Shown piece by piece: positions 56,100 to 60,424 of a stretch of 64,000 nt of DNA. Positions within the stretch are counted from its first letter, which is position 1. Each line of letters begins with the position of its first letter. Below the pieces are notes generated by a model. It had not been told where the DNA came from. It was given only the letters and a program-made list of their open reading frames with translations, and ran no database searches. Source of the stretch: Microbacterium sp. AK009 (GTDB taxonomy: Bacteria > Actinomycetota > Actinomycetes > Actinomycetales > Microbacteriaceae); the NCBI RefSeq assembly GCF_013410955.1, contig NZ_JACCCG010000004.1:124001-188000 (forward strand), written 5' to 3'. The position numbers and the translations under genes are program-made.

Positions 56100-57677
56100 T
56101 CAGCCCCGGCCGAGGAGCTTCTGGAGTTCGGCGAGATCCTCGGCGCTCGGCGTGCCGCCCGCTCCTCCGGCGCCGGCCCCGCCGCCCAGGCCGAACCCGG
56201 TCCCCGTGGGCGAGGCGGGTGCCGACGCGGCGATCCCCGCGTTCTCGGCCGCCCGCTTCGCGGGGTTCCCCGACCGCGACCCCTTCTGCTTCTGCTGCTT
56301 GCCGCGTTTGGCCGACGCGCCGGGGCGCCCCGCGCCCGGCACCGGGCCCATGCCCGGGATGTTGGGCACACCGCCGCGGGCGACGGTCTTCATCATCTTC
56401 GCGGCCTGCTCGAAGCGCTGGACGAGCTGGTTGACGTCGGTGACCGTCATCCCCGACCCTCGGGCGATGCGCAGACGCCGGGAACCGTTGAGGACCTTCG
56501 GATTGCGCCGCTCCCCCGGTGTCATGGAACGGATGATCGCCTCGGTGCGATCGATCTCACGCTCGTCGAAGTCGTCGAGCTGCTGCTTCATTCCCCCCAT
56601 GCCCGGGAGCATCCCGAGCATCTTCTTCATCGAGCCCATCTTCTTGAGCTGCTGCATCTGCTCCAGGAAGTCCTCGAGGGTGAACTGCTCGGTCGCGATC
56701 TTCTCCGCGACCTTGCGCGCCTCCTCTTCGTCGAACGCCTGCTGCGCCTGCTCGATGAGGGTGAGGATGTCACCGAGATCGAGGATCCGCGAGGCCATCC
56801 GGTCGGGGTGGAACGCTTCGACGTCGTCGAGTCCTTCTCCGGTCGAGGCGAAGATGATGGGCCGGCCGGTGACGGATGCGACGGACAGGGCCGCGCCGCC
56901 TCGCGCGTCGCCATCGAGCTTGGACAGGACGACACCGGTGAAGTCCACGCCGTCCTGGAAGGCCTTGGCGGTGTTGACCGCATCCTGTCCGATCATCGCG
57001 TCGATGACGAAGAGGACCTCGTCGGGGTCGGTGGCCCGGCGGATGTTCGCCGCCTGCTTCATGAGCTCCGCATCCACACCGAGGCGGCCCGCGGTGTCGA
57101 TGATCACCACGTCGTGCTGCTGGCGCCGCGCGACCTCGACCCCGTCGGTCGCGACCCGCACGGGGTCGCCCACGCCGTTGCCGGGCTCGGGGGCGTACAC
57201 CGCGGCGCCGGCCTGGCGTCCGACGACCTGCAGCTGGTTCACGGCGTTCGGTCGCTGCAGGTCGGCGGCGACGAGAAGCGGCGTGTGCCCGTCCTTCTCG
57301 AGCATCCTGGCCAGCTTGCCGGCGAAGGTCGTCTTCCCCGATCCCTGCAGGCCCGCAAGCATGATGACCGTGGGCGGGTTCTTGGCGAACTGCAGCCGAC
57401 GCTGCTGGCCGCCGAGGATGCCGATGAGCTCCTCATTGACGATCTGCACCACCTGCTGGGCGGGGTTCAGCGCGCGATTGACCTCGTCGCCCAGGGCGCG
57501 TTCGCGGATCTTCGCGGTGAACTCCTTGACCACCGGGAGCGCGACGTCGGCGTCCAGAAGCGCCCGGCGGATCTCCCGCACCGTCCCATCGACATCAGCG
57601 GGGGTGAGCTTGCCCTTCGTGCGCAGATTGCGGAAGGTCTCAGTGAGCCGGTCGGAGAGCGTGCCGAAGGTAGCCAT
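56100..57677 (-). CDS. ffh: Signal recognition particle protein Ffh
   Basis: A 525-residue SRP GTPase. N domain, G domain with GLQGSGKTTFAGKLA, DTAGRLGVDAELM and KLDGDARGGAA, then the methionine-rich M domain (MQQLKKMGSMKKMLGMLPGM), which binds signal peptides and SRP RNA. The C-terminal glycine/alanine-rich tail is a typical actinobacterial addition. ATG at 57677. Partner FtsY is at 61459. Confidence 0.96.
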   Translation of the reverse strand: MATFGTLSDRLTETFRNLRTKGKLTPADVDGTVREIRRALLDADVALPVVKEFTAKIRERALGDEVNRALNPAQQVVQIVNEELIGILGGQQRRLQFAKNPPTVIMLAGLQGSGKTTFAGKLARMLEKDGHTPLLVAADLQRPNAVNQLQVVGRQAGAAVYAPEPGNGVGDPVRVATDGVEVARRQQHDVVIIDTAGRLGVDAELMKQAANIRRATDPDEVLFVIDAMIGQDAVNTAKAFQDGVDFTGVVLSKLDGDARGGAALSVASVTGRPIIFASTGEGLDDVEAFHPDRMASRILDLGDILTLIEQAQQAFDEEEARKVAEKIATEQFTLEDFLEQMQQLKKMGSMKKMLGMLPGMGGMKQQLDDFDEREIDRTEAIIRSMTPGERRNPKVLNGSRRLRIARGSGMTVTDVNQLVQRFEQAAKMMKTVARGGVPNIPGMGPVPGAGRPGASAKRGKQQKQKGSRSGNPAKRAAENAGIAASAPASPTGTGFGLGGGAGAGGAGGTPSAEDLAELQKLLGRG

Positions 57678-57738: not shown

Positions 57739-58710
57739 TCACTCGGGGCCGAGCTCCTGGAACACCGTGAGCTGCACGCCGTCGGGGCCCCGGAGCCGTG
57801 CGTTGCGGGAGCGCCACGGGGTCTCGGTGGGCGGGGCCTCCAGACGGGCGCCGGCGTGCACGAGCGCCTGCGTCTCCGCTTCGACATCGCCGACTTCGAG
57901 TGCCACGCGCATCCCGTCGCTCTCCACGCCGTCGGTTTCGACCGCATCGATGAGGCGCACCTGCGCCGTATTCGCCAGCTCCAGCGTCGCCCGGCCAGCG
58001 TCGAGGATCGCCACGCGTGCGCCGTCCGGGCCTTCGAACGCCTCAGCCTCGGGCATCCCGAGCACGTCACGGTAGAACGACAGCGCCCCGTCGAGATCGG
58101 CCGAGCGGACGACCAACCGGAGTTGACGCACACCCCCCTGCGCCGGCAGCAGGGGCGCGACGACCCCGACGGCGTCATCGAGGGTCCGCGAGAGCGAGGT
58201 GCGCCCCGGACCCGCGGCCGCCCATGCGCGCACCGCGGCGAGCACCGCTCCCCCGACAGCGGCTCCGACGACGTCTGCCGCGAGCGGGTCGGCCCCGGAC
58301 TGCAGCGCAGCGGATACCGATCGGCCGATGCGCGCCGCACGAACGGCCGACTCGCGATCCAACTCGTCCTCGAGTCCCATCGCTCTCGCGTTGGCCATCG
58401 CGAGCGCCAGGGTGTCGGGGGCGAATCCCGCCGCGAACGCGCGCAAGGCCGTCCGCACATGCGGCGCGCCCGACTCCCCCGCATCGAGACGGGTGCGAAG
58501 GGCGTCCACCCGCGCGTCGAAACTCGACCAGAGGATGTCCGATTTGGACGTGAAGTAGTTGAAGAAGCTCGACCGCGAGACACCGGCACGCAAGGCGATG
58601 TCGACGATGGATGTCGCCTCGTAGCCGCGCTCGAAGAACAGCTCGCACGCGGCCTCGGCGATGGTCGCAGGAGACGAGAGCTTCGGACGCCCGGCGCGCG
58701 GCTCAGTCAT
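57739..58710 (-). CDS. TetR-family regulator fused to a VOC (glyoxalase-like) domain
   Basis: A 323-residue protein. Residues about 10-60 are a TetR helix-turn-helix (IAEAACELFFERGYEATSI, AGVSRSSFFNYFTSK), followed by the helical ligand domain to about residue 190. From about residue 200 to the end is a VOC domain (VRQLRLVVRSADLDGALSFY, LGMPEAEAFEGPDGARVAIL, LRGPDGVQLTVFQ). VOC folds bind small molecules or metals, so this could be a second sensor or a resistance domain. It diverges from lipB, with a perfect palindrome between them. ATG at 58710. Confidence 0.88.
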   Translation of the reverse strand: MTEPRAGRPKLSSPATIAEAACELFFERGYEATSIVDIALRAGVSRSSFFNYFTSKSDILWSSFDARVDALRTRLDAGESGAPHVRTALRAFAAGFAPDTLALAMANARAMGLEDELDRESAVRAARIGRSVSAALQSGADPLAADVVGAAVGGAVLAAVRAWAAAGPGRTSLSRTLDDAVGVVAPLLPAQGGVRQLRLVVRSADLDGALSFYRDVLGMPEAEAFEGPDGARVAILDAGRATLELANTAQVRLIDAVETDGVESDGMRVALEVGDVEAETQALVHAGARLEAPPTETPWRSRNARLRGPDGVQLTVFQELGPE

Positions 58711-58753
58711 GACTTCACCCTAGAACGCGCGGGCACGCTGCATAGGAAGCGTA

Positions 58754-58774
58754 TTGTTGGACGCGGTCCAACAA
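58754..58774. promoter_or_regulatory. Perfect 21-base palindrome, candidate TetR-VOC operator
   Basis: TTGTTGGAC (58754-58762), GCG, GTCCAACAA (58766-58774) in the 77-base gap between the TetR-VOC and lipB genes. The size and symmetry are right for a TetR dimer. It ends 13 bases before lipB and 43 bases before the regulator, so it probably overlaps both promoters. Confidence 0.75.
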
Positions 58775-58787
58775 GAAAGGCGCCTCC

Positions 58788-59426
58788 GTGCTCGAAACGA
58801 TGACCGTGGGGCTCGACCCCGACTTCGTCCCCTACGCCGACGCGTGGCACCTGCAGCGGCGTATCCACGCGGAGGTGGTGCGCGCAGAGCGGGCGGACAC
58901 CCTGCTGCTGCTCGAGCACGAGCCGGTCTTCACCGCCGGCAGGCGCACCGAACCGCAGGAGCGCCCCACCGACGGCACCCCTGTCATCGACGTCGACCGC
59001 GGCGGCAAGATCACGTGGCACGGCCCCGGTCAACTCGTCGGGTATCCCATCGTCCGCCTCCCGGAGCCCGTCGATGTCGTGGCCCACGTCCGGCGCCTCG
59101 AGCGCCTCCTCATCACGGCCCTCGCTCGCCTCGGCGTCGAAGGATTTCAGGTGGACGGTCGAAGCGGGGTGTGGGTCAGGCGGCCCCTCTCGACCGACAA
59201 GGTGGCCGCCATCGGCGTCCGCGTCGAGCGCGGGGTCACCATGCACGGGTTCGCGATCAACTGCGACAACTCCCTCGCACCCTTCCGTCAGATCATCCCC
59301 TGCGGCATCGCCGACGCCGGAGTGACGACCATCAGCGAGGTCACCGGGGTGGAGACGTCGCCCCGCGACATCCTTCCGACCGTCACCGAGGTCTTCCTCG
59401 CCGCCGAGCAGGCGGTGGCGGCATGA
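58788..59426 (+). CDS. lipB: Octanoyl-ACP:protein N-octanoyltransferase
   Basis: A 212-residue enzyme that moves octanoate from ACP to lipoyl domains of 2-oxo-acid dehydrogenases and glycine cleavage H. The catalytic cysteine is in [14 protein letters not shown] and the lysine in [28 protein letters not shown] is conserved. GTG at 58788 has AAAGG upstream; ATG at 58800 is possible. Overlaps lipA by four bases. Confidence 0.95.
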
Positions 59427-60424
59427 GCGCGGCGGCACCCGACGGCCGGCGCCTCCTGCGACTGGAGGTGCGCAACGCCCAGACGCCGATCGAGCGGAAG
59501 CCCGAGTGGATCCGCACGAAGGCGAAGATGGGTCCGGAGTACACCGCCCTGCAGGGGCTGGTGAAGGACGAGGGCCTGCACACCGTGTGCCAGGAGGCGG
59601 GCTGCCCGAACATCTACGAGTGCTGGGAGGATCGCGAGGCCACCTTCCTCATCGGTGGCTCGCAGTGCACCCGTCGGTGCGACTTCTGTCAGATCGACAC
59701 GGGGAAGCCAGCCGATTACGACACCGACGAGCCCCGGCGCGTCGCGGAGAGCGTGCAGCGGATGCAGCTGCGCTACGCCACGGTGACCGGGGTCGCCCGT
59801 GACGACCTTCCGGACGGCGGTGCCTGGCTCCACGCCGAGACCGTGCGCCGCATCCATGCCGACAATCCCGGAACGGGCGTCGAGATCCTCGCCACGGACT
59901 TCAACGGTGTACCGAGTCTGCTGGAGGAGGTGTTCGACTCCCGCCCGGAGGTCTTCGCACACAACGTCGAGACGGTCCCCCGGATCTTCAAGCGGATCCG
60001 TCCGGCGTTCCGCTACGAACGTTCCCTCGGCGTTCTGACGATGGCGCGCGAGTCGGGGCTGATCACGAAGTCGAACCTCATCCTCGGAATGGGTGAGACG
60101 CCCGGCGAAGTCCTGGAGGCGCTGCAGGATCTGCACGATGCCGGCACCGACATCATCACGATCACGCAGTATCTCCGTCCCTCGCCCCGACACCTTCCGG
60201 TGGACCGCTGGGTCAAGCCCGACGAGTTCGTCGAGTTCAAGCAGGCTGCGGAGGAGATCGGCTTCCTCGGTGTGCTGGCGGGACCCCTCGTGCGCTCGTC
60301 GTATCGGGCGGGTCGCCTGTGGGCGCAGTCGATGATCTCCAAAGGCCGCGAGATACCTGCCGTTCTCGCCCACCTCGCGCGCGATATCGCCTCGGAGGGG
60401 GTGTCCTTCGCGCAAGCGGTGTGA
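59423..60424 (+). CDS. lipA: Lipoyl synthase
   Basis: A 333-residue radical-SAM enzyme that inserts two sulfurs into octanoyl chains. The auxiliary cluster cysteines are in [12 protein letters not shown], and the radical-SAM cysteines are in [20 protein letters not shown] near the end holds the conserved serine that binds the auxiliary cluster. ATG at 59423 overlaps lipB. Confidence 0.96.

Follow-up and report, generated by a model that had tools for sequence, protein, structure and literature searches.

The window (the whole stretch of DNA analysed, 64,000 nucleotides) encodes a TetR regulator fused to a VOC domain, which is likely to be an autoregulating repressor of lipBA acting at a palindrome on the lipB promoter, with the VOC domain as an optional second module. 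This reading comes from the comparison of sequences across genomes and concerns the following features:

57739–58710, minus strand: tetR-VOC fusion gene encoding 323 aa, a single intact ORF with an ATG start (Pfam; same architecture in at least 68 of the 247 genomes of the genus)
58150–58710, minus strand: TetR part, residues 1–187, with an MftR-like fold (Pfam HTH at residues 17–60; AF2 helices at 14–187)
57751–58131, minus strand: VOC part, residues 194–320 (Pfam; AF2 strands and helices at 196–319; fold match to Mrd, 1kmz)
58754–58774, no strand: perfect 21-bp palindrome TTGTTGGAC-N3-GTCCAACAA, predicted operator (sequence, genome search, conserved footprint)
58752–58776, no strand: 25-bp conserved footprint around the palindrome (87 aligned loci)
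58788–59426, plus strand: lipB, octanoyltransferase, predicted target (NCBIfam PRK14345, 310.9 bits for a cut-off of 155)
59423–60424, plus strand: lipA, with a start overlapping the lipB stop (ATGA), adjoining lipB in the relatives' loci read
56100–57677, minus strand: ffh, the usual Microbacterium neighbour on the far side of tetR

Both domain matches of the fusion exceed the Pfam gathering score: TetR_N at residues 17–60 (PF00440, 58.1 bits for a cut-off of 24, E 7.7e-16) and Glyoxalase/VOC at residues 198–314 (PF00903, 49.5 bits for a cut-off of 20.6, E 6.7e-13). The N-terminal HTH, above the curated cut-off, places the protein in the TetR family, and its tail is assigned to the VOC superfamily by both the Pfam domain and the VOC fold. 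The AF2 model, for which 40 fusions were used, has a pLDDT of 89.7 and a pTM of 0.69. M. kunmingense encodes a protein 81% identical to the fusion, and PADLOC gave no match. The single 323-aa ORF bears out the first-pass annotation, which had described a TetR and a VOC domain joined in one protein. That annotation had also named a frameshift error as a possible source of the VOC domain; we reject this artefact because at least 68 of the 247 Microbacterium genomes share the same two-domain frame, uninterrupted by an internal stop.

The gap between tetR and lipB spans 77 bases (58711–58787), and the perfect palindrome that had been claimed for it is present: TTGTTGGACGCGGTCCAACAA, at 58754–58774, has perfect arms. 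With up to 3 mismatches allowed, it is the window's only site (0.01 expected from shuffles), and the search elsewhere in the genome, proposed along with the claim, found no other at this tolerance in 3.46 Mb, as would be expected of a dedicated regulator. Across 18 genomes, sites with no more than 3 mismatches were about as frequent as in a backwards control, and we therefore draw no wider regulon from that search. Across the 87 loci, the information content around the 25-bp footprint does not exceed 0.66 bits in the flanks, and within it is 1–2.6 bits in most columns, the latter values being inflated because sites were chosen by their likeness to the consensus. Conservation is lower in the right arm than in the left (pairs 5–21 and 6–20 are complementary in 38 and 40 of the 87 loci, respectively), and among the 110 loci described below all 9 arm pairs are found only at the window's own site (L002), those of its relatives being imperfect. 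The first six bases of the footprint, TATTGT, could by eye be the -10 hexamer of lipB. The promoter scan gave no sigma-70-like site, and one terminator-like site was found versus 0.5 expected.

The PRK14345 score, above the NCBIfam cut-off, identifies the gene beyond this gap as lipB. Because the lipA start overlaps its stop, lipB and lipA very likely form one operon. On the other side of tetR, ffh is outside the proposed regulator–lipBA circuit.

To compare the arrangement across the genus we read 110 Microbacterium loci: 68 with the fusion, whose ORFs were rebuilt, and 42 with TetR only, taken from 175 lower-scoring genomes and mostly the best-scoring TetR-only ones. The 25-bp motif was counted as present at 15/22 or more, the motif and E-value thresholds having been fixed after first looks at the data. 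Shuffled upstream regions, which keep base content only, scored 10–11/22 on average, with single maxima up to 15. When tetR and lipB are less than 300 bp apart, the motif is present in 93 of the 95 gaps, with or without the VOC domain (57 of 59 fusion gaps and 36 of 36 TetR-only gaps); the two low-scoring fusion gaps, L026 and L031, carry a diverged form. These counts answer the question of whether a like palindrome stands beside orthologues. They also split the earlier proposal: genome comparison favours the palindrome as the operator and lipBA as the target, but not the VOC domain as the tie to the lipoate genes. Since TetR-only orthologues keep a like site in 36 of 36 adjacent cases, the VOC domain is ruled out as the cause of the link to lipB.

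The loci in which the two genes have parted are informative on the partner of the site. In 15 loci lipB is not adjacent to tetR, and the motif is found in only one of the 15 tetR upstream regions (L037, genome G183). We sought lipB in these 15 genomes and in 4 without a strong TetR match, and found it in 13 of the 19 (11/15 and 2/4). The motif lies 19–35 bases before lipB in all 13 (scores of 16–20/22), including 11 of the 11 parted genomes that keep lipB. Hence, when tetR and lipB part, the site goes with lipB. Two genomes, G003 and G165 (94% and 99% complete), keep the lipB site and have no close TetR (best identity 35% and 32%, respectively). Both are small, and ffh is now close upstream of lipB (L117, L120), a position suggestive of a loss of the regulator gene. 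A LipB match at E<=1e-20 is absent from G183, G085, G119, and G031, as well as from two incomplete genomes, G132 and G163. G085, G119, and G031 also lack the site, though they keep the regulator; G183 has both site and regulator. These four nearly complete genomes (loci L056, L098, L102, and L037 for G085, G119, G031, and G183), of which G119 and G031 have the VOC domain, may belong to organisms that scavenge lipoate and whose regulator is orphaned.

The association between site and regulator extends to other genera of the Microbacteriaceae. From 150 family genomes we dropped 45 without a LipB match and then, among the remaining 105, 2 of Microbacterium, which left 103. The core TTGGACN3GTCCAA, at 10/12 or more, was sought in a stretch of about 170 bases that covers the lipB start and the region before it. 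The core is present at lipB in 20 of the 103 genomes, compared with a single one of 102 control stretches taken from farther upstream, and a match to the TetR half at E<=1e-20 is present in 50 of the 103. All 20 genomes with the lipB site are TetR-positive, whereas the 83 site-less ones include 30 positives and 53 negatives (Fisher p 4.6e-8); the site thus occurs in 0 of 53 TetR-negative genomes. Genomes are not independent, and the count by genus, a coarse control, gives 14 genera with both, 0 with the site only, 22 with TetR only, and 29 with neither (p 1e-4). Neighbouring thresholds gave Fisher p values from 0.0014 to 2.2e-10. Two counts speak against repression of lipBA by this regulator: the lipB site (>=10) is missing in 30 of the 50 TetR-positive genomes of these genera, and the core is absent from the genome's own tetR in 9 of the 20 that have it at lipB.

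We read the homologous tetR locus in 44 of the 50 TetR-positive genomes. The core (>=10) is found in the homologue's own upstream region in 24 of these 44 loci. None of 9 weaker paralogues has it, and of 926 control windows it occurs in 1. The core stands at both tetR and lipB in 11 genomes, at tetR only in 13, at lipB only in 9, and at neither in 11. In the 11 genomes with both sites, tetR and lipB occupy different contigs or are separated by over 100 kb, so that a shared gap cannot explain the two sites. The conserved palindrome, apparently at the regulator's own or a neighbouring promoter, agrees with membership of the TetR family. With a crude gene caller, 28 of the 44 tetR homologues are divergent from one of two transporter-like clusters, 21 from a peptide-type ABC substrate-binding protein and 7 from what is, by eye, an MFS-like carrier. 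One peptide-type ABC member best matches NCBIfam TIGR04028, with 222.9 bits, below the cut-off of 468.5; at L235:1356-6578 and other loci the TetR gene is divergent from a TIGR04028-like ABC importer, and several of these have the palindrome core in between. An isoleucyl-tRNA-synthetase-like gene (by eye) is frequently downstream of tetR in these genera. That the neighbour of the regulator elsewhere is often a transporter, not a lipid gene, weighs against our preferred reading. The unlinked position of tetR, next to transporters, makes its pairing with lipBA look like a Microbacterium arrangement of an older link between regulator and lipB, which was probably trans-acting. Within the 60 bases upstream of lipB, many other genera show, by eye, a TAGACT-like hexamer shortly ahead of the start codon; lipB transcripts may therefore be leaderless in those genera.

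We propose the following mechanism. The TetR half would act as a dimeric one-component repressor that binds the 21–25 bp palindrome on the lipB promoter. Sitting over or next to the -10 region, it would hold down lipBA, and in the arrangement of the window the same site could govern the regulator's own gene. A ligand in the C-terminal pocket of the TetR half would release the repressor from DNA. The VOC half, whose fold is that of drug-sequestering VOC proteins, would serve as a second, optional binding module and probably provides another input or makes the dimer more stable. As far as genome comparison goes, it is a dispensable add-on, not needed for the choice of operator or target. The anatomy, its conservation, the co-occurrence of site and regulator, and the site staying with lipB in parted genomes are shown by the data; from these we infer binding to DNA, a negative rather than a positive control, the ligand, and what the VOC half does.

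The closest solved fold to the VOC half is the mitomycin-binding protein Mrd (1kmz; Z 15.1, rmsd 2.0, 113 residues); the enzymes hydroxymandelate synthase and methylmalonyl-CoA epimerase are also VOC fold matches, with Z of about 12–13. Foldseek ranks TnmS1 first, by E-value, and Mrd third. Metal-dependent VOC enzymes of the glyoxalase I type have His/Glu metal ligands on their central strands. By eye, from the AF2 strands and the aligned columns of 40 of the 68 rebuilt fusion ORFs, the strands usual for the metal-binding His carry invariant Arg198 and Arg268, and Glu244 is also invariant. The arginines on these strands would favour a binding rather than a catalytic role, and the model of the VOC half resembles drug-binding VOC proteins. 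This resemblance fits the suggestion of the first-pass annotation that the VOC part may sense or hold a toxic compound, although enzymes of the superfamily rank close behind among the fold matches. Genes for free-standing VOC proteins with about 45–67% identity to the VOC half are found in other genera and more widely in the phylum. In the 44 Microbacterium genomes without the fusion (42 TetR-only and 2 without TetR), there is a close free copy in 2 (G183, G208), a more distant VOC paralogue in 5, a weak match in 1, and none in 36. A second VOC family (L190–L194, L196, L197, L199), about 46–52% identical to the fused domain, is free-standing and patchy in Microbacterium. No neighbour cluster recurs in more than 3 of 19 neighbourhoods of free VOC homologues (8–10 kb; two of them around the distant paralogue), and these genes thus give no clue to function.

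Other explanations account for parts of these observations. The palindrome could be the lipB operator of another regulator, with the TetR gene merely its neighbour, and this would fit both the site following lipB rather than tetR when the genes part and the two genomes, G003 and G165, that bear it without this TetR. We regard this as unlikely, given the core at the unlinked tetR in 24/44 loci against 1/926 control windows and the 20/20 lipB sites in TetR-positive genomes of other genera. Alternatively, the regulator might act on itself alone, the overlap with the lipB promoter being due to the short gap. TetR proteins commonly autoregulate, and the gap is just 77 bp, but the parted Microbacterium genomes have the site at lipB in 11/11 and do not have it upstream of tetR in 14/15, which makes this the least probable of the explanations.

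The sense of the regulation and the role of the VOC half could also differ from our proposal: the TetR half might activate lipBA, or the VOC half might be a detoxifying enzyme served by a switch of its own, the TetR half. VOC proteins (PF00903) do include glyoxalases and dioxygenases, and the epimerase and synthase named above are among the fold matches. Yet the site lies, by eye, at or near the expected -10 region, the place of a repressor; the invariant arginines occupy, also by eye, the usual His strands; and the top fold match of the VOC half is the drug-binding Mrd. We therefore hold either version to be very unlikely, and retain repression of lipBA by the TetR half as the preferred reading.

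The fusion itself is present in at least 68 of the 247 Microbacterium genomes. A match at E<=1e-20 is found in 243 of the 247, the other matches listed being mainly to the TetR part. Scans of the family (398 genomes) and of the phylum (396), with at most 5 candidates scored in each genome, gave full-length fusions only in Microbacterium among the matches listed. In one family genome outside Microbacterium, query residues 104–322 are matched in one 246-aa frame (G345:C6:5279-5932), which may be a VOC match extended by chance or a different type of fusion. The tree test did not reject the fused VOC domains as one clade (p 0.78; the constrained tree scored above the unconstrained one) but rejected the fused TetR parts as one clade (p 0.005). 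In our reading, a single old fusion preceded several losses of the VOC domain, a scenario that fits these trees, whose few alignment columns limit their power; transfer or repeated fusion may be the alternative.

These elements can be assembled into a wider picture, possible if rather doubtful, of a dedicated regulator of lipoate homeostasis in the Microbacteriaceae. An MftR-like TetR would sense a lipoyl- or octanoyl-derived compound and jointly control lipB and, where it is apart from lipB, the divergent TIGR04028-like ABC importer or MFS-like carrier, possibly importing lipoyl compounds. It would have moved beside lipBA in Microbacterium, where a single old fusion would have supplied the VOC domain as an additional sensor, and many species would have lost it since. 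For the study of lipoate control, a direct entry is offered by a candidate for a dedicated repressor, one whose site is mapped and which is seen across a family. The fusion and its TetR-only counterparts, with a like operator and target, provide a natural comparison for the effect of an added ligand-binding module on a one-component regulator.

The titles and abstract openings among the literature matches listed, a scope outside which most subscription journals lie, contain no TetR-VOC fusion and no TetR regulator of lipB. For the VOC half, the nearest known systems are the Mrd/TnmS-type drug-binding proteins. These are 21–28% identical to it and free-standing, whereas the VOC domain here is the tail of a regulator. 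TnmS1 (PDB 5umq) has a weak sequence match (E 0.0091), and its Foldseek alignment an rmsd of 11.2.

For the TetR half, the nearest system is MftR, both by fold (8x0a; Z 15.3, rmsd 3.1, 170 residues; jointly with SCO0337, Z 15.3) and by the best NCBIfam match of the fusion, TIGR03968. This match scores 87.6 bits, far below the equivalog cut-off of 224.9, and thus does not assign the fusion to MftR. The 8x0a chain has 184 residues; MftR is therefore without a VOC domain. According to one study, MftR is a TetR repressor with the palindromic operator T-N2-GGCA-N5-TGCC-N2-A and responds to long-chain acyl-CoA (PMC8728441). This operator differs from the TTGGAC-N3-GTCCAA of the window, which does not match the MftR type, and MftR targets the mycofactocin genes whereas the predicted target of the fusion is lipBA. 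The likeness to an acyl-CoA responder suggests an acyl-type ligand, and by this analogy our best guess is an acyl, octanoyl, or lipoyl species. The guess of acyl-CoA is weakened by Arg67 of the fusion, which seemingly aligns, by eye, with the effector residue His68 of MftR.

The genetic control of lipoate synthesis was called poorly understood in 2015, in a study reporting that cAMP-CRP controls lipBA in Shewanella (PMC4398509). That system shares with the one predicted here the transcriptional control of lipBA. However, cAMP-CRP is a global regulator, whereas the single genomic occurrence of the palindrome of the window, with up to 3 mismatches allowed, is the pattern of a dedicated one.
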